A stretch of DNA of 31,519 bases from a virus, in IMG/VR virus record IMGVR_UViG_3300042514_001038, positions 1-31,519 of that record; one strand, given 5' to 3'. Position 1 is the first letter of the stretch; each line of letters opens with the position of its first letter. Shown piece by piece: positions 4,456 to 31,519 of this stretch. Under the pieces are notes generated by a model. That model did no database searches and had not been told where the DNA came from. It was given only the letters and a program-made list of their open reading frames with translations. Both the position numbers and the translations under genes were made by a program.

Positions 4456-4486
4456 TTTGCAACCTTTTCAATTTACTATGGAATGG

Positions 4487-4546
4487 ATTGTACCAGAACC
4501 AGCGAGAATGGCAACCATCCTTTGGATACTTGACCGGATTGGTCAA
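4487..4546 (-). promoter_or_regulatory. promoter with full TTGACC-N5-GGTCAA palindrome
   Basis: The palindrome TTGACC-N5-GGTCAA occupies 4546-4530 on the minus strand. It lies 15 nt upstream of TTGCCA (4514-4509), with TACAAT at 4492-4487 after a 16-nt spacer that contains CTGGTTCTGG. It drives the 80-aa gene. The palindrome partly overlaps the end of the upstream 66-aa gene. Confidence 0.75.
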
Positions 4547-4743
4547 CCTTTGGCATGGGAGAGACCAACATTCCGAAGGGTGGCAGCCTTGGCTCCAAGG
4601 TTGGCGACCGAATACTTGGCACCAGCCGACCAAGTCCGTTCCGACCTACGGGGGCGGGCAGGCTTGCAAATGGTAACCAATACACCGTCCAGCAGGTATT
4701 GGGCTTGGACCTTGCGGTCGGTTGGTTGAATTGATTTTATCAT
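4543..4743 (-). CDS. hypothetical protein, 66 aa, probably leaderless
   Basis: The ATG at 4743 lies 7 nt after the -10 box of its promoter, which is where transcription should start, and no ribosome site precedes it. The likely reading is a leaderless mRNA. The product is basic (CKPARPRRSERTW) and of unknown family. The frame stays open further upstream, but that part crosses the promoter and is not expected to be translated. Confidence 0.5.
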   Translation of the reverse strand: MIKSIQPTDRKVQAQYLLDGVLVTICKPARPRRSERTWSAGAKYSVANLGAKAATLRNVGLSHAKG

Positions 4744-4750
4744 GGAATGG

Positions 4751-4791
4751 ATTGTACCAGAACCAGCGAGAATGGCAACCAATAGTTGACC
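4751..4791 (-). promoter_or_regulatory. minus-strand promoter of a divergent pair
   Basis: Minus strand: GGTCAA (4791-4786), 7 nt, TTGCCA (4778-4773), 16 nt, TACAAT (4756-4751), extended TGG. The half-site is shared with the plus-strand promoter at 4819-4846, so one bound protein could control both directions. Confidence 0.75.
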
Positions 4792-5302: not shown

Positions 5303-5515
5303 ATGATGAACACAAAAACCTACACTGTAGAACACCACGACAAAACCATGGACTTCCATGTGATCCGCTGGTCCCCATTGTCCAACGGTGTCCACACTGG
5401 CGAGTCCGTAGAACGGTTCCAATGTGAGGATGAGGCCATGGAAGTGGCTCGAATCCTGAACCAAGCCGAGGAACTGAGCCTGTACCTGGACCAGTCCTGC
5501 GAATTTGATAGTTGA
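5303..5515 (+). CDS. hypothetical protein, 70 aa, leaderless
   Basis: The start (ATGATG at 5303) is exactly 7 nt downstream of the -10 TAGAAT and has no ribosome site, so the mRNA is probably leaderless. The open frame extends upstream to 5204 but crosses the promoter. The protein has a beta-rich first half (TYTVEHHDKTMDFHVIRW) and an acidic helix (EDEAMEVARILNQAEEL). Unknown family. The next gene's operator follows at once. Confidence 0.6.
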   Translation: MMNTKTYTVEHHDKTMDFHVIRWSPLSNGVHTGESVERFQCEDEAMEVARILNQAEELSLYLDQSCEFDS

Positions 5516-5563
5516 CCATTCCGGTCAAGTATTGGTTGACAATACTACCGGAACCTGTATAAT
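5512..5563 (+). promoter_or_regulatory. promoter with full TTGACC-N5-GGTCAA palindrome
   Basis: TTGACC (5512-5517), ATTCC, GGTCAA (5523-5528), 7 nt, TTGACA (5536-5541), 16 nt, TATAAT (5558-5563). The consensus -35 makes this probably the strongest member of the class. It drives the 95-aa gene. Confidence 0.8.
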
Positions 5564-5595: not shown

Positions 5596-5883
5596 ATGTC
5601 CCGTTTAATATCTGAGCGCACCGCCCATGCATGGTTTGATGAGATGCTGGACGACTGTGAAGGTCCGGTGGAACTGTGCGGAATGACCTATTCCGCTTCC
5701 GAGGTCCTGCGTGAGGTCGACCCGGTAGCCTATCGGTGCGGTTTTAACGACTACGTGGATTCCTTGACCGAGGAAGACGTTTTCGTGGAAGGTCTCACCG
5801 AGGATGAGATGGAGACCGAGGATGAGGATGACGGTCAGCCGGACGAAGCCCAAGAGTGGGCGGATTTTGATGCTGATTGTTGA
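5596..5883 (+). CDS. hypothetical acidic protein, 95 aa
   Basis: A strongly acidic protein whose C-terminal third is nearly all Glu/Asp (EDVFVEGLTEDEMETEDEDDG). It has four Cys residues but no clear finger spacing. It follows AAAGGAAAG and its own promoter. Its stop codon lies inside the next operator palindrome (5880-5896). The acidic charge could mimic DNA, but no family is recognised. Confidence 0.65.
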   Translation: MSRLISERTAHAWFDEMLDDCEGPVELCGMTYSASEVLREVDPVAYRCGFNDYVDSLTEEDVFVEGLTEDEMETEDEDDGQPDEAQEWADFDADC

Positions 5884-5932
5884 CCTGTCCGGTCAAGTAT
5901 TGGTTGCCAGAACCTGCTGGTTCTGGTATAAT
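5880..5932 (+). promoter_or_regulatory. promoter with full TTGACC-N5-GGTCAA palindrome
   Basis: TTGACC (5880-5885), TGTCC, GGTCAA (5891-5896), 7 nt, TTGCCA (5904-5909), 17 nt, TATAAT (5927-5932) with TGG extension. It drives the AAA+ gene at 6003 through a structured leader. Confidence 0.8.
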
Positions 5933-11530: not shown

Positions 11531-11868
11531 GCCTTGATGTAAATTTGATGGTGGTGCAACCGGTGTCGATTTATTACAATAATATCACACACAATCTAGG
11601 TAAAATGGCCGGAGAGGTTAAACTCTCAAATGGCCTGTCACTGTATGATGTGATGTGGCGACCTGATGAGCACTCCTTGAAGTTTGCGAAAGATATATCC
11701 GAACTCCTGGATGAAGGATGGAATATTCTGCTATCTGACCCGGAACATTTTAAGACCTTTAACCCTGAGAATGGTTGGGGTTCATATGATGGTCTTCAGA
11801 ATTTTGTATACAAGTATCGTAATGCATGTTTCGATAATCCTGATGCTGAACTGAGTATATCAAGATGA
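11527..11868 (+). CDS. conserved phage protein (NITHNLGKMA family), 113 aa
   Basis: The pattern YNNITHNLGKMA, then YDVMWRPDE, then FNPENGWGSYDGL and a final aromatic helix is a familiar protein of phages and bacteria without known function. It overlaps both neighbours by four bases. Confidence 0.7.
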   Translation: MSLDVNLMVVQPVSIYYNNITHNLGKMAGEVKLSNGLSLYDVMWRPDEHSLKFAKDISELLDEGWNILLSDPEHFKTFNPENGWGSYDGLQNFVYKYRNACFDNPDAELSISR

Positions 11869-12338
11869 ACAAAAAACCTAAACTATACATGCTGGTCGGT
11901 GTACCAGGTTCTGGAAAGTCCACTTGGGTGAAGAACCAAGAGTTTTGGATGAAAGATTGTGCGTACATTTCCACCGACAAGTATGTGGAAGAATGGGCTG
12001 AAAGTGTTGGTAAAACCTATACCGAAGTGTTTGAAGAATACATGCCCGTAGCCGTTACAAGGATGGCAGGTGCCGTGAATGCCGCACGTGATGTGGGAAA
12101 GGACATTATCTGGGACCAAACCTCTACCACTATTGCCACAAGGGCGAAGAAATTCCGAATGCTCCCGGAATATTATGCGATTGCTGTGGTTTTTCGGATC
12201 CCAGAGCCGGAAGAACTCCAGAAAAGGCTTGCCAGCCGACCTGGAAAAGTGATACCATCGGAGGTACTACAATCTATGATTGATAGGTGGGAAGAACCCA
12301 CATTGGAAGAAGGCTTTAATGAAATTTGGAGAACATAA
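11865..12338 (+). CDS. P-loop kinase, polynucleotide-kinase-like
   Basis: Walker A GVPGSGKST (12-20) opens a 157-aa AAA_33-type kinase. ISTDKY gives the usual substrate-side Asp, WDQTST follows, and RLASRPGKVIPSEVLQSM is the lid region with Arg residues. This is like the kinase half of T4 Pnk (5'-OH polynucleotide kinase). The phosphatase half of Pnk is absent. With the DEDD exonuclease two genes upstream it may act in RNA or DNA end repair; that link is an inference. Confidence 0.75.
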   Translation: MNKKPKLYMLVGVPGSGKSTWVKNQEFWMKDCAYISTDKYVEEWAESVGKTYTEVFEEYMPVAVTRMAGAVNAARDVGKDIIWDQTSTTIATRAKKFRMLPEYYAIAVVFRIPEPEELQKRLASRPGKVIPSEVLQSMIDRWEEPTLEEGFNEIWRT

Positions 12339-12532
12339 TGACAGAAAAACTTGAAATTGATTGTGAAACGGCTGACCGTATTACTTTGTTGGCACTCAAA
12401 GACCACAGAAAATACCTTAAAAAGGAATTGAAACGCCACAGGAAGGGTGAATGGTTGCATCCAGAGGATGTTGTGTACAATACACAATTACTTGAAGCAC
12501 TGGATGTTATTATTGATTATTATGGTGGTTAA
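12338..12532 (+). CDS. conserved phage protein, 64 aa
   Basis: A charged helical protein with TLLALKDHRKYLKKELKR, GEWLHPEDV and LLEALDVIIDYYG. Short proteins with a central HPEDV are common in T4-like phages and have no assigned role. It starts in a TAATG overlap with the kinase gene; the upstream in-frame ATG at 12326 is less likely. Confidence 0.65.
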   Translation: MTEKLEIDCETADRITLLALKDHRKYLKKELKRHRKGEWLHPEDVVYNTQLLEALDVIIDYYGG

Positions 12533-12733
12533 ATGAAAGAGCCAATCGTAAAATCTGATATCAATCGACACCTTCATGCCATGCTAGGCCGTTCCGAACT
12601 GGTTGATGGATGGTGGGATTCACCAAACAAGGCATTTGATGGTAAAACACCTAATGAGGTGTACCAAACTGGTGCGGAAGGTCGGCTGAGTGTTTATCAA
12701 TACGTGATTGGTTGTTCCGATGAGCATTGGTGA
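12533..12733 (+). CDS. small protein, possible MbcA/ParS-type fold, 66 aa
   Basis: The segment LVDGWWDSPNKAFDGKTPNEV resembles the core of the MbcA/ParS (DUF2384) toxin-binding domain, which often has an FdG.tP motif. Here it stands alone without a toxin gene next to it. It begins directly after the previous stop, and a terminator module follows. The family call is tentative. Confidence 0.55.
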   Translation: MKEPIVKSDINRHLHAMLGRSELVDGWWDSPNKAFDGKTPNEVYQTGAEGRLSVYQYVIGCSDEHW

Positions 12734-12736
12734 AAT

Positions 12737-12799
12737 GTTGTAAAAAAACAACAAAAGGCAATCTTTATGGTTGCCTTTTTTTTATATATGGTATATAAT
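12737..12799 (+). promoter_or_regulatory. terminator/promoter module, copy 1
   Basis: GTTGT and ACAAC (12737-12752) form a small hairpin. AAAAGGCAA (12753-12761) then pairs with TTGCCTTTT (12771-12779), followed by more Ts, as a terminator. The same TTGCCT is the -35 of a promoter with TATAAT at 12794-12799 (17-nt spacer). A near-identical module stands at 14213-14273, on the other side of the DUF262-HNH gene. Confidence 0.8.
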
Positions 12800-12824
12800 A
12801 GAGTTTTCAATAATTGGACCTAAA

Positions 12825-14210
12825 ATGGCAAAACAACATAGTGTAACAGTAGCGTTGAATCGTACAATGAAACTTATTTCCACCAATATGCGGTATTTTA
12901 GGGAAAGAGTTGCTCTTGATACATCTTTTCAATCTGAAAGTCGATGGGAAGAAAAACAAGCCACAGCATATATGACCTCACTTATTACTGGTATGGCACC
13001 ATCAAAAATTGTTGTTGCTAATATCAAAGAGTGTATGGACAAATGCATGGTAGAATCAAAAGATTATGAATACTACAATGATTGGCTTCAAAAAGGTTTT
13101 GAATGGATTTCCATTGACGGAAATAACCGTACTATCACAATCGACCAATATCTGAATGGTTCTGTTAAATTAAAGCATGGTCAATATCCATTGCCCAATG
13201 GTGTCGTTGATATCAATGATAAGAATGACACATACAAAAAGCATCCAAAAATTCTTTTAGATTTTATTGAAAGTAGTGTCGAGATTACTGTTGCTGAGTA
13301 TGTTTCTGCCACACGTAATGATTTGTCCAATATTTTCATTAACGTGAATGATGGTGTTTCACTGAATGCACAAGAATTACGTAATGCACGTTTGGTGCCA
13401 TTTGCTGGTTGGGTGCGTGACACTGTAAAGAAACATAAGAATGAATTCCGTAAAGTATTTACCACGGAAAAACAAGAGAAGCGCCGATTGATTGACGATT
13501 TTGTTGTTGGTCTTGCCATCTATTCTTCTTTTGGTGCTGAACATGGTGTTGCAAAATCTGATAAAGATAATGCATATGAAGATGATTCTGTTGTATCAAA
13601 ACAAACTAAGAATGCAAGTTCTAGTATTGATTCGATGTGCAAGATTGTCAAGAAACATGCAACAACTGGATTTAAAGACCATTCGACAATGTTGAATTTC
13701 TATATGGTGATTGATTATCTCCGTAAAAACAATTTTGGTATTATCGATGACGCAAAACTATTTCAATGGTTTATGCGTACAGAGAATCGCCGCCTTGGAA
13801 GTAAAAAGATTCTGGTAGAATCTCCAAAATCAGGTGAACTCCGTACATATGCATCATGTTGCAATACAATGTCAAAGTTAGAATTAACGGCACGTTATAA
13901 AGCCATTATGGAAGACTTTGAAATTATTGAAAGCGGTATCGTAGCACAACGGGACTCTGAACGCCTTTTCACACCACAACAAAGGTATGAAGCATGGGCA
14001 CGCCAAGCTGGTGTATGTCCAATAACTGGTGAACATATTCCAGAGGAGGAAATTAACGACCATGAAAAATGGGCGGCAGACCACATTGTTCCACACACCT
14101 TTGGTGGTCCATCCAAAGGTACCGATGGTACAAATAACTGCCAATTGGTTGCGAAGTCTGCCAATCTTAAAAAAGGTAGTAAAATGACACTCGGAGAAGT
14201 TCTGGTCTAA
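12825..14210 (+). CDS. DUF262-HNH protein (GmrSD/SspE-like), 461 aa
   Basis: The N-terminal half is DUF262-like: DGNNR (98-102) in place of the usual DGQQR, and INVNDGVSLNAQELRNA (around 173-188). The C-terminal 65 residues form an HNH nuclease with CPITGEH, ADHIVPHTFGG and an Asn/Lys-rich end. This is the layout of GmrSD type IV restriction and SspE, where DUF262 binds nucleotide and senses modified DNA. In a phage it may attack competing phage or host DNA, or act as a mobile endonuclease. ATG 12825 fits the promoter and leader; an upstream in-frame TTG lies inside the terminator. It is flanked by matching regulatory modules, which suggests arrival as a cassette. Confidence 0.75.
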   Translation: MAKQHSVTVALNRTMKLISTNMRYFRERVALDTSFQSESRWEEKQATAYMTSLITGMAPSKIVVANIKECMDKCMVESKDYEYYNDWLQKGFEWISIDGNNRTITIDQYLNGSVKLKHGQYPLPNGVVDINDKNDTYKKHPKILLDFIESSVEITVAEYVSATRNDLSNIFINVNDGVSLNAQELRNARLVPFAGWVRDTVKKHKNEFRKVFTTEKQEKRRLIDDFVVGLAIYSSFGAEHGVAKSDKDNAYEDDSVVSKQTKNASSSIDSMCKIVKKHATTGFKDHSTMLNFYMVIDYLRKNNFGIIDDAKLFQWFMRTENRRLGSKKILVESPKSGELRTYASCCNTMSKLELTARYKAIMEDFEIIESGIVAQRDSERLFTPQQRYEAWARQAGVCPITGEHIPEEEINDHEKWAADHIVPHTFGGPSKGTDGTNNCQLVAKSANLKKGSKMTLGEVLV

Positions 14211-14212
14211 GT

Positions 14213-14273
14213 GTTGTACCAAAACAACAAAGGCAATCTTTATGGTTGCCTTTTTTTTGGTTTCTGGTATAAT
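14213..14273 (+). promoter_or_regulatory. terminator/promoter module, copy 2
   Basis: Same design as 12737-12799: GTTGT/ACAAC hairpin (14213-14228), AAAGGCAA (14229-14236) with TTGCCTTT (14246-14253) and a T run, then TATAAT (14268-14273) 16 nt from the TTGCCT. The terminator core with its 9-nt loop TCTTTATGG is identical in both copies. Confidence 0.8.
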
Positions 14274-14302: not shown

Positions 14303-14554
14303 ATGCGTACAAAACAACTGATTTGGGGTCTGAATAACACTCAGAAGTTCCGTGCTATCGTGAATGGTGTTGGCTTCATTATGAAGGTGAAAGACCTTGA
14401 AGATAAATTTGTGTTCACCACACAGAGGGTTGCAGTATGGAATGCATTGGCAACCTGTGCAAGAGAAAACGTTAGTGGTTTTGGTACCACATACACCTAC
14501 TATGATGAAAAGATGGTGGCCACTAAGGTGGATATACAGGTGAACCTTCTTTGA
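14303..14554 (+). CDS. hypothetical protein, 83 aa
   Basis: A basic N-terminus (MRTKQLIWGLNNTQKFRAIV) and a beta-rich remainder; no family recognised. It follows the second terminator/promoter module with a GAAAGG ribosome site. Confidence 0.65.
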   Translation: MRTKQLIWGLNNTQKFRAIVNGVGFIMKVKDLEDKFVFTTQRVAVWNALATCARENVSGFGTTYTYYDEKMVATKVDIQVNLL

Positions 14555-14604
14555 AGGATGGACATACCTACTTATGCAACAAACAAGAATGGAAAGAGGT
14601 TAAT

Positions 14605-14691: not shown

Positions 14692-14717
14692 AGAAACACC
14701 TTGTTATGGAGAACTTT

Positions 14718-15869
14718 ATGAATCGTAATGCAAAAGCATTCGTCCAAGCCGCATCTGAGATTTTCGGTGAGAATGCAATTTTGAGCCGTGACCAAATTCA
14801 ACGTGTCGTTGATGAACGGTCTGTTCCTTATCCCTTCTGGTTTGTCACTCGCCAAGAGTTTCGTTCTGGTCGTGGCCAATACCTTCTTCCTAATGCACCA
14901 AACGCCGTGTCATGTGATGTTGCAGTTGAAGAACCTGCCGTTGTCGAATTGACACAAACTGCCACTGTCCATGTTCTCCGTCAAAAGAAACTTGAAGACC
15001 ATGCAGATACTTCTATCCCTGAAAAATACCAAGGCTATGTCCCCTTTGGTTTCTACAAAGACCTGACCTCCATTGTACTCTCACAGGAATTCTTCCCTGT
15101 GTTCATTACTGGTATGTCTGGTAATGGTAAGACACTCATGGTTGAACAAGTGTGTGCCACACTCAAACGTGAATGTATCCGTGTGAACATCTCCGTTGAG
15201 ACTGATGAATCTGACCTGATTGGTGGTCCAACACTTATCGATGGTAACGTGGTGTACCGTGATGGTCCTGTGATGACTGCCATGAAACGTGGTGCAATTC
15301 TCTTGATTGACGAAGTTGACCGTGGTTCAAACAAACTGATGTGCCTTCAAGGTATTCTTGAAGGCAAACCTTACTTCAACAAAAAGTCTGGTGAATACAT
15401 CTATCCAAAACGTGGCTTCAACGTTGTTGCAACTGCTAACACCAAAGGCCGTGGCTCTGAAGAGGGTCGTTACCTGTCACAGATTCTTGATGATGCGTTC
15501 CTTGAGCGTTTCAACATCACCGTTGAACAGGAATATCCTGAAGCCAAGGTTGAACTCAAGATTCTCAAACCATTGTTGAATGATGATGAGTTTGCCGAGA
15601 ACCTTGTGAAGTGGGCTGACGTTATTCGTAAAACATTCGCCGAAGGTGGTGTTGATGAGATTGTCTCCACTCGCCGTTTGGTACACATTGCAAAGACTTA
15701 TTCAATCTTCAAAGACCGTTCGAAGGCAATTCAACTCTGTGTGAATCGTTTTGACCAAGAAACCAAAGATTCGTTCCTTGACCTGTACTCGAAAGTTGAT
15801 ATCAAAGTGGCGGAGGCAAACACTGCACCTGTGATGCCGACCTCACCTGATGATGAAGTGCCATTCTAA
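14718..15869 (+). CDS. CobS/MoxR-like AAA+ ATPase, 383 aa
   Basis: A MoxR-branch AAA+ ATPase. After a variable N-terminal 105 residues come Walker A GMSGNGKT (132-139), the GGPT insert, Walker B ILLIDEVDRG (194-203), a VVATANTKGRG sensor-1 and a DAFLERF arginine-finger strand, all close to cobaltochelatase CobS. Phage members pair with a CobT-like VWA protein, here encoded at 1-699, over 13 kb away. The ATG at 14718 is chosen because GGAG lies 7 nt before it; the ATG at 14706 overlaps that ribosome site. Confidence 0.8.
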   Translation: MNRNAKAFVQAASEIFGENAILSRDQIQRVVDERSVPYPFWFVTRQEFRSGRGQYLLPNAPNAVSCDVAVEEPAVVELTQTATVHVLRQKKLEDHADTSIPEKYQGYVPFGFYKDLTSIVLSQEFFPVFITGMSGNGKTLMVEQVCATLKRECIRVNISVETDESDLIGGPTLIDGNVVYRDGPVMTAMKRGAILLIDEVDRGSNKLMCLQGILEGKPYFNKKSGEYIYPKRGFNVVATANTKGRGSEEGRYLSQILDDAFLERFNITVEQEYPEAKVELKILKPLLNDDEFAENLVKWADVIRKTFAEGGVDEIVSTRRLVHIAKTYSIFKDRSKAIQLCVNRFDQETKDSFLDLYSKVDIKVAEANTAPVMPTSPDDEVPF

Positions 15870-24947: not shown

Positions 24948-25011
24948 ATGGTTGTATGAAGCAACTAGAAACGGATTCAAGACGCGGGGGCAGTGCCCGC
25001 CAGGTCCACCA
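24948..25011 (+). ncRNA. ssrA: tmRNA acceptor piece
   Basis: GATTCAA (P2 strand, 24974-24980), then T-stem GCGGG (24984-24988), loop GGCAGTG, CCCGC (24996-25000), acceptor strand CAGGTCC, and ACCA (25008-25011). The spacing matches the 3' end of E. coli tmRNA exactly, with discriminator A and encoded CCA. A small GTTG/CAAC hairpin may lie at the 5' end. Only the T-loop sequence is atypical. Confidence 0.8.
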
Positions 25012-25023
25012 CAAGGATTTTAT

Positions 25024-25182
25024 GTGGATGATACAGATAAACTAAAAGAGTTACAAGAAAACTTGGCCAAGGATCTAGTTCAACTAGAACAGAATAAATC
25101 AGTAACTGAAAATCAGTTAGATGATATAACCGAAATATACTCTAAAGTTTATGATATCGTTTCCAAAATAAAATCTTTATGA
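25024..25182 (+). CDS. 52-aa coiled-coil ORF inside the tmRNA intervening segment
   Basis: A GTG at 25024 stands 7 nt after AAGGA and opens a frame ending at 25182, two bases before the tmRNA coding piece. The product is a charged heptad-patterned helix (DKLKELQENLAKDLVQLEQ and further). The frame is also open upstream to a TTG at 24952, but that would read through the acceptor piece. If translated, the message is either the unprocessed precursor or the excised spacer. Codon composition looks like a real gene; function unknown. Confidence 0.5.
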   Translation: MDDTDKLKELQENLAKDLVQLEQNKSVTENQLDDITEIYSKVYDIVSKIKSL

Positions 25183-25183
25183 T

Positions 25184-25356
25184 GGGCCTGACACAGGATC
25201 GATTGGGTCAAGAGTACAGAAGTGGACAACTCACCAGAGTAGGTGTAAAAACTAAATCAAAGTAAAAGCAAACGAAAGTCGCTTTTTGATGGCTGCTTGA
25301 TAGCCATCTAGGGTTTTTGACAGTTTATCCTCGTAACAGAATTAAACTGTCTTTTT
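25184..25356 (+). ncRNA. ssrA: tmRNA coding piece with tag ANESRFLMAA
   Basis: Acceptor strand GGGCCTG (25184-25190), D-region ACACAGGATCGA, P2 strand TTGGGTC, about 58 nt that should hold pseudoknot PK1 (not resolved), then A-rich AAAGTAAAA and resume codon GCA at 25268. Ten codons give ANESRFLMAA, close to the betaproteobacterial ANDERFALAA, then two stops (25298-25303). GATGGCT/AGCCATC (25288-25308) puts the stop codon in a hairpin loop, as helix P5 does. AGGG (25310-25313) with TCCT (25328-25331) and GACAGTTTA with TAAACTGTC form an H-type pseudoknot, followed by five Ts as terminator. Confidence 0.8.
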
Positions 25357-30400: not shown

Positions 30401-31519
30401 TTAGTTTCCTATTCTCGGATTTAATTCACCCAATGGTGCTGAAGGTGATTGTATAGTTTTTTGTTTATTTGTAGTGTTGTTTTGAATAATCACTGGAGAA
30501 CCACTTGCTGAACCTTGTGACATATCTTTTTTCATGTTGGCATTTTTCATAGAAGAATCATTTAATGAAGATCCAACAGTAGTATCATTTGTTTGTAATT
30601 TTGCTTTTGATGCTCGGTCGGCATCTAGAGCCACACCAACTTCTTCAGGAGAATTGTGTGCTTTATTACCACCAATACCAGAATAATACGATGAACCCTT
30701 TTTTAATTCAACCCTCACCTCTTTTATTGATCCGTCTTTTTGTTTAATCTTATCTATTCTATATGTATCAAAGGGCACACCAACTGAAGCAAACTCTTTT
30801 GAAAGTTGTAAAATTGCCTCATTTCTTGCATCTATTCCATTAGTTTTACCTTCTATGTAATTTGATACTTTTTTACGATTTATATCAATTAATCCTTTAG
30901 AAAACAAATGATCTTGCACAGTAGGTGTTAAGTAAGTGGTATTTGGATCTATCTTTAATTGTTCTATGAGACCTCGCATAGTTTTAGGTATAATTTGATA
31001 CCTGCCCACTGCAAATAAACGGTCTGGGTCATCGATTGGTAATTCTGATCTTCTAAGATATTCCGAAATTGTAATTTTACTAAAATCAACAGGTGCAATT
31101 GCTCCAAGAATTTTATTATCTTTTGTACCTCTATTGTAGGCATTATATTCATTACCAGCAAAAGATTTTCCAGCAGAAGCGGTGCTTTCATATTTGGCAA
31201 TATTGGTAGCCAAGGCTTCTTTTCCAGCGAGAACGGCTGTCACGGCGGCCGCACCAGTAATTACTTTTGAAGCCGATGGTTGTGTGGTTGGTATGGGTTC
31301 TTGTTTTTTTGCCGTATCTGCGGCTTTTTTAGCATCAGCCGCATCCTTAATTCGTTTAGCATCAGCCGCATCTTTGGCTTTCTTGGCCGCATCAGCCGCA
31401 TCTTTGGCTTTCTTGGCCGCACTGGCGGCATCAGCGGCATCCTTAGCCTTCTTGGCCGCACTGGCGGCATCAGCGGCATCCTTAGCCTTCTTGGCCGCAC
31501 TGGCGGCATCAGCGGCATC
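30401..31519 (-). CDS. virion protein with lysozyme-like domain and Ala/Lys repeats (5' end outside window)
   Basis: The frame stays open to the edge, so at least 372 residues are encoded and the N-terminus is missing. The first ~65 visible residues are an Ala/Lys/Asp-rich repeat, then KYESTASAGKSFAGNEYNAY and DDPDRLFAVGRYQIIPKTMR, the pattern of a phage lysozyme-like or transglycosylase domain with Glu at the start and an FAVGRYQI motif. The C-terminus is Ser/Asn-rich and likely flexible. It is probably a virion-associated peptidoglycan hydrolase. A GTG at 31243 is not the start because coding clearly continues upstream. Confidence 0.7.
   Translation of the reverse strand, partial: DAADAASAAKKAKDAADAASAAKKAKDAADAASAAKKAKDAADAAKKAKDAADAKRIKDAADAKKAADTAKKQEPIPTTQPSASKVITGAAAVTAVLAGKEALATNIAKYESTASAGKSFAGNEYNAYNRGTKDNKILGAIAPVDFSKITISEYLRRSELPIDDPDRLFAVGRYQIIPKTMRGLIEQLKIDPNTTYLTPTVQDHLFSKGLIDINRKKVSNYIEGKTNGIDARNEAILQLSKEFASVGVPFDTYRIDKIKQKDGSIKEVRVELKKGSSYYSGIGGNKAHNSPEEVGVALDADRASKAKLQTNDTTVGSSLNDSSMKNANMKKDMSQGSASGSPVIIQNNTTNKQKTIQSPSAPLGELNPRIGN
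31325..31519 (-). repeat. Ala/Lys/Asp-rich repeats within the virion gene
   Basis: On the minus strand units such as AAKKAKDAADAAS recur several times to the window edge, with longer DNA-level repeats of about 45 nt at 31420-31519. The repeats give a TolA-like straight helix that may serve as a stalk before the lysozyme-like domain. Confidence 0.75.

Follow-up and report, generated by a model that had tools for sequence, protein, structure and literature searches.

The window, as we call the whole stretch of DNA that was analysed, comprises 31,519 bases of the virus record of a T4-like phage with CobS- and PhoH-like genes. A composite module occurs in it twice, at 12737-12799 and at 14213-14273. 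Each copy consists of a dyad (TGTTGT-N6-ACAACA), a terminator hairpin and a promoter with its -35 in the 3' arm of the hairpin; promoter and terminator activity are predicted. A sequence-only reading had placed modules with GTTGT/ACAAC, a terminator and TATAAT at 12737 and 14213, and we located both, flanking the gene for a DUF262-HNH protein (12825-14210). The features of the locus are as follows.

12533-12733, + strand: gene F, 66 aa, left neighbour; conserved left flank of the empty site
12737-12752, + strand: left dyad, GTTGTAAAAAAACAAC, assigned to the recipient; genus-type loop AAAAAA; 18 nt before the -35
12753-12783, + strand: left terminator hairpin (12753-12779) plus T tract
12771-12799, + strand: cassette promoter; -35 TTGCCT at 12771, 17-nt spacer, -10 TATAAT at 12794-12799
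12784-14258, + strand: inserted unit, 1475 bp; -10 region, DUF262-HNH gene, ACCAAA dyad and terminator core
12825-14210, + strand: DUF262-HNH protein, 461 aa, ATG start
12867-13394, + strand: DUF262/ParB-Srx-like N-terminal domain, residues about 15-190
13971-14186, + strand: Cas9-type HNH domain, residues about 383-454; ADHIVPH at 418-424, N438, N447, K450
14213-14228, + strand: right dyad, GTTGTACCAAAACAAC, assigned to the incoming DNA; ACCAAA loop; 17 nt to the -35
14229-14258, + strand: right terminator hairpin (14229-14253) and T tract, second copy of the 30-nt core
14246-14273, + strand: recipient promoter of the G-CobS operon; -35 TTGCCT at 14246, 16-nt spacer, -10 TATAAT at 14268-14273
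14303-14554, + strand: gene G, 83 aa, no family; conserved right flank of the empty site
14706-15869, + strand: CobS-like AAA ATPase, the query used for finding relatives

The module separates an operon ending in genes E and F from the G-CobS operon. The longest block common to both copies is an exact match of 30 nt, the terminator core AAAGGCAATCTTTATGGTTGCCTTTTTTTT (12754-12783, identical to 14229-14258). Its 19-nt hairpin GGCAATCTTTATGGTTGCC, with T8, was found at these two places alone when the window was scanned with 3 mismatches allowed, and in none of 100 shuffles. Among the neighbouring genes, F gives a weak match to PF09722 (MbcA/ParS antitoxin C-terminal domain; 23.4 bits, cut-off 24.5), and a gene for an AAA_33/zeta-toxin-like kinase lies two genes before F; judging by these matches, the kinase and F (together spanning window 11865-12733, + strand) are possibly the remnant of a toxin-antitoxin-like pair.

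To find related phages, we searched with the neighbouring CobS protein and obtained 80 related loci. The arrangement F-module-G, with one module and no DUF262 gene, was found in L016-L023 and L041, whose CobS proteins are 91-97% identical to that of the window (L016 and L017 are the same in sequence, as are L019 and L020). The single-module empty site that the duplication had implied thus exists, between the same two flanking genes. No close relative lacks the gene while keeping both modules, nor is the module common at unrelated sites in them: it is single-copy in each close relative, one of which is a 166-kb contig, and strong terminators are scarce as a class in these phages, our scan giving no more than four per strand in 166 kb.

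Comparison with the closest known relative (L018/G007, hereafter the sister) delimits the inserted unit. The left module is the same as in the sister up to 12783, and so is the right module from 14229 onward; the G-CobS promoter at 14246-14273 is identical to that of the sister's empty site. Removing 12784-14258 (1475 bp) from the window yields a reconstructed empty site that aligns to the sister gap-free at 97.0% over 526 bp, and perfectly over the 71 nt to the left and the 114 nt to the right of the junction; this places both crossovers within the 30-nt terminator core. The inserted unit is for the most part lower in GC content (0.34-0.37) than its flanks. In the CobS tree the window joins the sister (0.978), then L016 (0.997) and then more empty relatives, so that the occupied phage is nested inside an empty clade. 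With the sister and more distant relatives empty, the history is most simply read as a gain in the window lineage. The insertion is known from one contig; no second occupied copy was found among the phage contigs searched, whose sampling is uneven and may miss records very near the window. Together, the single-module sites, the gap-free match, the tree and the single-copy module strongly support the earlier proposal of a cassette insertion that copied its junction.

The two dyads of the window differ in their loops. The intact F-G dyads of close relatives have the loop AAAAAA, as does the left module of the window (the dyad of L021 is degenerate); the ACCAAA loop of the right dyad is the common type in other phage contigs, and an exact search for ACCAAA dyads returned 70 stretches in other viral contigs. 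One of these ACCAAA-dyad contigs, G049, holds the closest homolog of the window gene (49% identical), beside CobS and a gene H. The two closest homologs adjoin CobS-H, in L248 and L249, and are 85% identical to each other; these loci bear ACCAAA and ACCAGA dyads, the L249 gene lying near ACCAGA. We found no donor with a module at the gene, which in L248 and L249 has no such module on either side. More distant family members (22-27% identical) occur in other phage contigs and in the Synechococcus phages S-SSM7 and Sf-FS3. Homologs were found only via alignment and dyad-bearing contigs; direct peptide patterns gave no close homologs in viral contigs and GTDB genomes, and the gene has no DNA match among GenBank phages. 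In the leader of the closest homologs (L245 1290-1500, L249 1820-1903) we observed a conserved hairpin in which the paired positions change together (CCTCGG/CCGAGG in one form, CCTTGG/CCAAGG in the other) and, besides it, another conserved stretch; the leader gave no Rfam match. In the L098-L102 subclade the HNH histidine is lost (GDAI for DHIV), and these proteins may be nuclease-dead.

We consider it likely that the DUF262-HNH cassette was gained after the split from the sister by exchange inside the 30-nt terminator core. A promoter-gene-terminator cassette would have entered at the composite dyad-terminator-promoter module, and exchange within the core would leave one module copy on each side of the gene. 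F would still have a terminator at its end and G its original leader, -10 and -35; between them the new gene would have a terminator of its own and its own -10, the TATAAT at 12794-12799, which comes from the incoming DNA. The recombination would have been homology-driven and carried out by the machinery of the phage itself; G001 and G006, two of the relatives, carry a RecA/UvsX-family gene. The incoming unit would probably derive from a related T4-like lineage with ACCAAA-loop dyads. In the sequence-only reading, the duplication allows the genes downstream to retain a promoter of their own; gene G does have an unchanged -10 and leader, but the dyad upstream of them has been replaced by one of the incoming ACCAAA type. 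At sites C-D and E-F the relatives carry further accessory genes whose insertion is seamless, no bracketing repeat or module having been found, which indicates that the module route is not usual in this group.

The same arrangement could also result from loss, if the gene between two modules were ancestral and recombination between the 30-nt direct repeats had removed it from the relatives, so that a single module remained. Deletion between the cores would yield exactly the sequence of the sister, but the site is empty in the sister, in the next-nearest relative and in those more distant relatives that retain it, so that several losses would be needed, and the loop type of the incoming dyad is foreign to the close relatives at the F-G site; we regard this history as unlikely. 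Equally improbable in our view is a selfish homing-type element, whose HNH protein would cut the empty module site and copy itself during repair. Free-standing homing nucleases are common in T4-like phages, and the HNH nuclease gene here forms a precise insertion between conserved genes; its closest homologs, however, lie elsewhere, after CobS-H in L248 and L249, other F-G sites are empty, and a DUF262-like NTPase-type domain with a BrxU-like fold is not a known homing architecture.

An assembly artefact, in which two phage populations were joined at the 30-nt repeat during metagenome assembly, would account for both joins lying in the repeat, for the single occupied contig and for the lower GC content of the insert. 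Yet 30 nt is shorter than an ordinary read, an artefact would require two false joins in one contig, and the left and right flanks agree with one and the same sister phage; we consider such a chimera very improbable. Gain by exchange in the terminator core is the reading we retain, and the gene looks like a recent addition to a water-borne T4-like phage and a clean natural case of a known T4-like gene-swapping route.

We characterized the dyad beyond this locus. In the phage DNA collected, GTTGT-N6-ACAAC occurs at 285 distinct strand-sites (2-10 for scrambled versions), and in loci chosen only by CobS at 82 (0-12 scrambled); its consensus extends to TGTTGT-N6-ACAACA. After clustering at 75% identity, a sigma70-type promoter lies downstream of 70 of the 207 strand-sites, compared with 76 of 4000 random 60-mers. 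The spacing between dyad and -35 has two maxima, at 6-7 nt (32 clusters) and 16-17 nt (24 clusters), one helical turn apart and with almost none between. Some loci were picked for the ACCAAA form, which inflates the counts and leaves the distances unaffected; both maxima recur in the 25 clusters not picked for ACCAAA. Both orientations of the loop are represented (ACCAAA 13, TTTGGT 12). In some modules (window, L153, L174) a terminator lies between the dyad and the -10.

The dyad is thus present in both modules, as first described, but as a wider promoter-upstream element and not as part of the terminator. We rejected a terminator RNA hairpin, because the dyad occurs without a terminator, in both loop orientations and at two fixed phases, all of which indicate a DNA site. 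Its position upstream of promoters, at two spacings one helical turn apart and in either orientation, suggests that it is probably the operator of a regulator, bound by protein on one face of the DNA. On balance we lean slightly towards a broader model, in which TGTTGT-N6-ACAACA is the operator of a putative regulator in a broad group of T4-like aquatic phages, used in either orientation at two helically equivalent placements before early-type promoters, and, where joined to a terminator, would serve as a landing site for whole-gene exchange in which the operator of the downstream operon is swapped together with the cassette. As a bacterial host regulon the ACCAAA dyad found no support, with 17 scattered exact matches in 257 Gb. 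A GGACATACCTACTTAT-like sequence after gene G (window about 14567-14582) recurs near the ACCAAA dyad in other phage contigs, including L183 and L208.

Several other elements were observed in the window. A different hairpin-promoter family clusters at 4.5-5.9 kb, where a second dyad, TTGACC-N5-GGTCAA (4530-4546, 5512-5528 and 5880-5896), immediately precedes TTGCCA/TTGACA...TATAAT promoters in a cluster with small genes, and G001 and G002 have similar numbers of it. An exact 40-nt direct repeat (4478-4517 and 4742-4781, 264 bp apart) contains a minus-strand promoter and brackets a region of small genes; in G001 and G002 this region is rearranged. Between 3200 and 8400, TTGCC-N17-TATAAT promoters on both strands number 29 against a mean of 12, above all 100 shuffles, and some of their spacers are palindromic (AGAACC..GGTTCT). 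A permuted two-piece tmRNA, missed by ARAGORN, lies at 24950-25300 on the + strand (Rfam RF04321, 91.3 bits, gathering 47); its tag reads ANESRFLMAA-stop, and it is also present in 5 of 9 related contigs. Two-piece phage tmRNAs are already known, for example in Melnitz (PMC9004378). Tandem 30/39-bp repeats occupy 31329-31514, at the end of the contig, within a reading frame on the minus strand.

Turning to the inserted gene, we compared its 461-aa product with known families. In Pfam the N-terminal domain matches PF03235 (GmrSD_N, DUF262) at 23.4 bits, below the cut-off of 33.2, and carries IDGNNR at residues 97-102 and FINVNDG...NAQELRNA around 171-188; the C-terminal domain matches PF13395 (HNH_4) at 22.7 bits (cut-off 22), and PF07510 (DUF1524) has no match. 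The HNH profile matches Cas9 (E 2.8e-11) and the domain keeps catalytic-type DH...N...N residues; across the family, the conserved motifs are DG(N/G)NR in place of DGQQR and DHxxP...N...N at the C-terminus. An AlphaFold model built with 22 relatives reached a mean pLDDT of 82.3 (a single-sequence prediction, at 33.5, was useless). The best match of the model to a solved structure was BrxU (Z 9.5, 278 aligned, rmsd 11.0), with ParB N-domains matching residues 15-179 at Z about 7, the Cas9 HNH residues 383-461 at Z 7.2 and the DUF262-like N-domain of SspE at Z 5.5-5.8. Searching the model against the PDB alone, Foldseek gave weak matches, none with E below 0.001, and against viral predicted structures it matched ones named GmrSD N-terminal (E 6e-10). 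The best PADLOC match was 'NsnA', for which a literature search found no paper.

From these data the protein is predicted to combine an NTP-binding DUF262 sensor with a nuclease of the Cas9 HNH type; it may cut competing phage or host DNA and probably works like GmrSD, BrxU and SspE, with a nucleotide-sensing domain controlling an HNH nuclease. Known enzymes of that group are defined by DUF262 plus DUF1524 (PMC4619093, PMC10952713), and DGQQR is nearly invariant in GmrSD (PMC4619093). Because DUF1524 is not matched and a Cas9-type HNH stands in its place, we do not assign the protein to GmrSD/BrxU/SspE; its earlier description as GmrSD/SspE-like holds loosely, for the DUF262-like fold, and not for IDGNNR or the Cas9-type HNH. 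The roles that this description suggested, restricting modified DNA and keeping out other phages, are putative. PF00303 (dCMP-hydroxymethylase-type, a hint of modified DNA) was found in none of G001, G002, G005, G006 and the window, which are mostly fragments.

The locus provides a before/after pair for T4-like module exchange, with the crossovers within one 30-nt terminator core, and this placement makes the minimum sequence and the role of the phage recombinase directly testable. It also draws attention to a promoter-upstream dyad common to many uncultured phages, pointing to a putative regulator, and to a phage-borne DUF262/Cas9-type-HNH protein family without an assigned function.

According to passages of PMC4503421 that cite Arbiol et al. 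2010 (10.1093/gbe/evq006) and Comeau et al. 2014 (10.1093/gbe/evu129), PeSL (promoter early stem-loop) cassettes mediate shuffling in T4-type phages, and the shuffled regions have a high module density. Judged by its sequence, the window case is module shuffling of the PeSL kind: a terminator stem-loop and a sigma70-type, early-type promoter lie between T4-like phage genes, and copies flank an exchanged gene variably present among relatives. It differs in that the module is solitary in each close-relative genome and occurs twice in the window, not in a dense array, that the window modules carry an upstream dyad, and that an empty-site sister shows the pre-exchange state and places both crossovers in the 30-nt core. 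With the type IV restriction enzymes BrxU and GmrSD the protein shares an N-terminal DUF262-like fold, a helical middle and a C-terminal HNH-superfamily nuclease, but it has IDGNNR instead of DGQQR and a Cas9-type HNH with no DUF1524 match. SspE, which senses phosphorothioate, likewise has the DUF262-like N-domain, whereas the window protein lacks DGQQR and DUF1524; no sspABCD partner genes were seen among the scanned neighbours. A free-standing homing endonuclease would share the HNH nuclease domain, but the homologs here lie at another insertion site. The uncharacterised DUF262-HNH proteins ('HNH Cas9-type') of S-SSM7 and Sf-FS3 have the same domain order over 92% of the length, with DG(G/N)NR and the HNH residues, although they are only 25% identical to the window protein and come from marine cyanophages.
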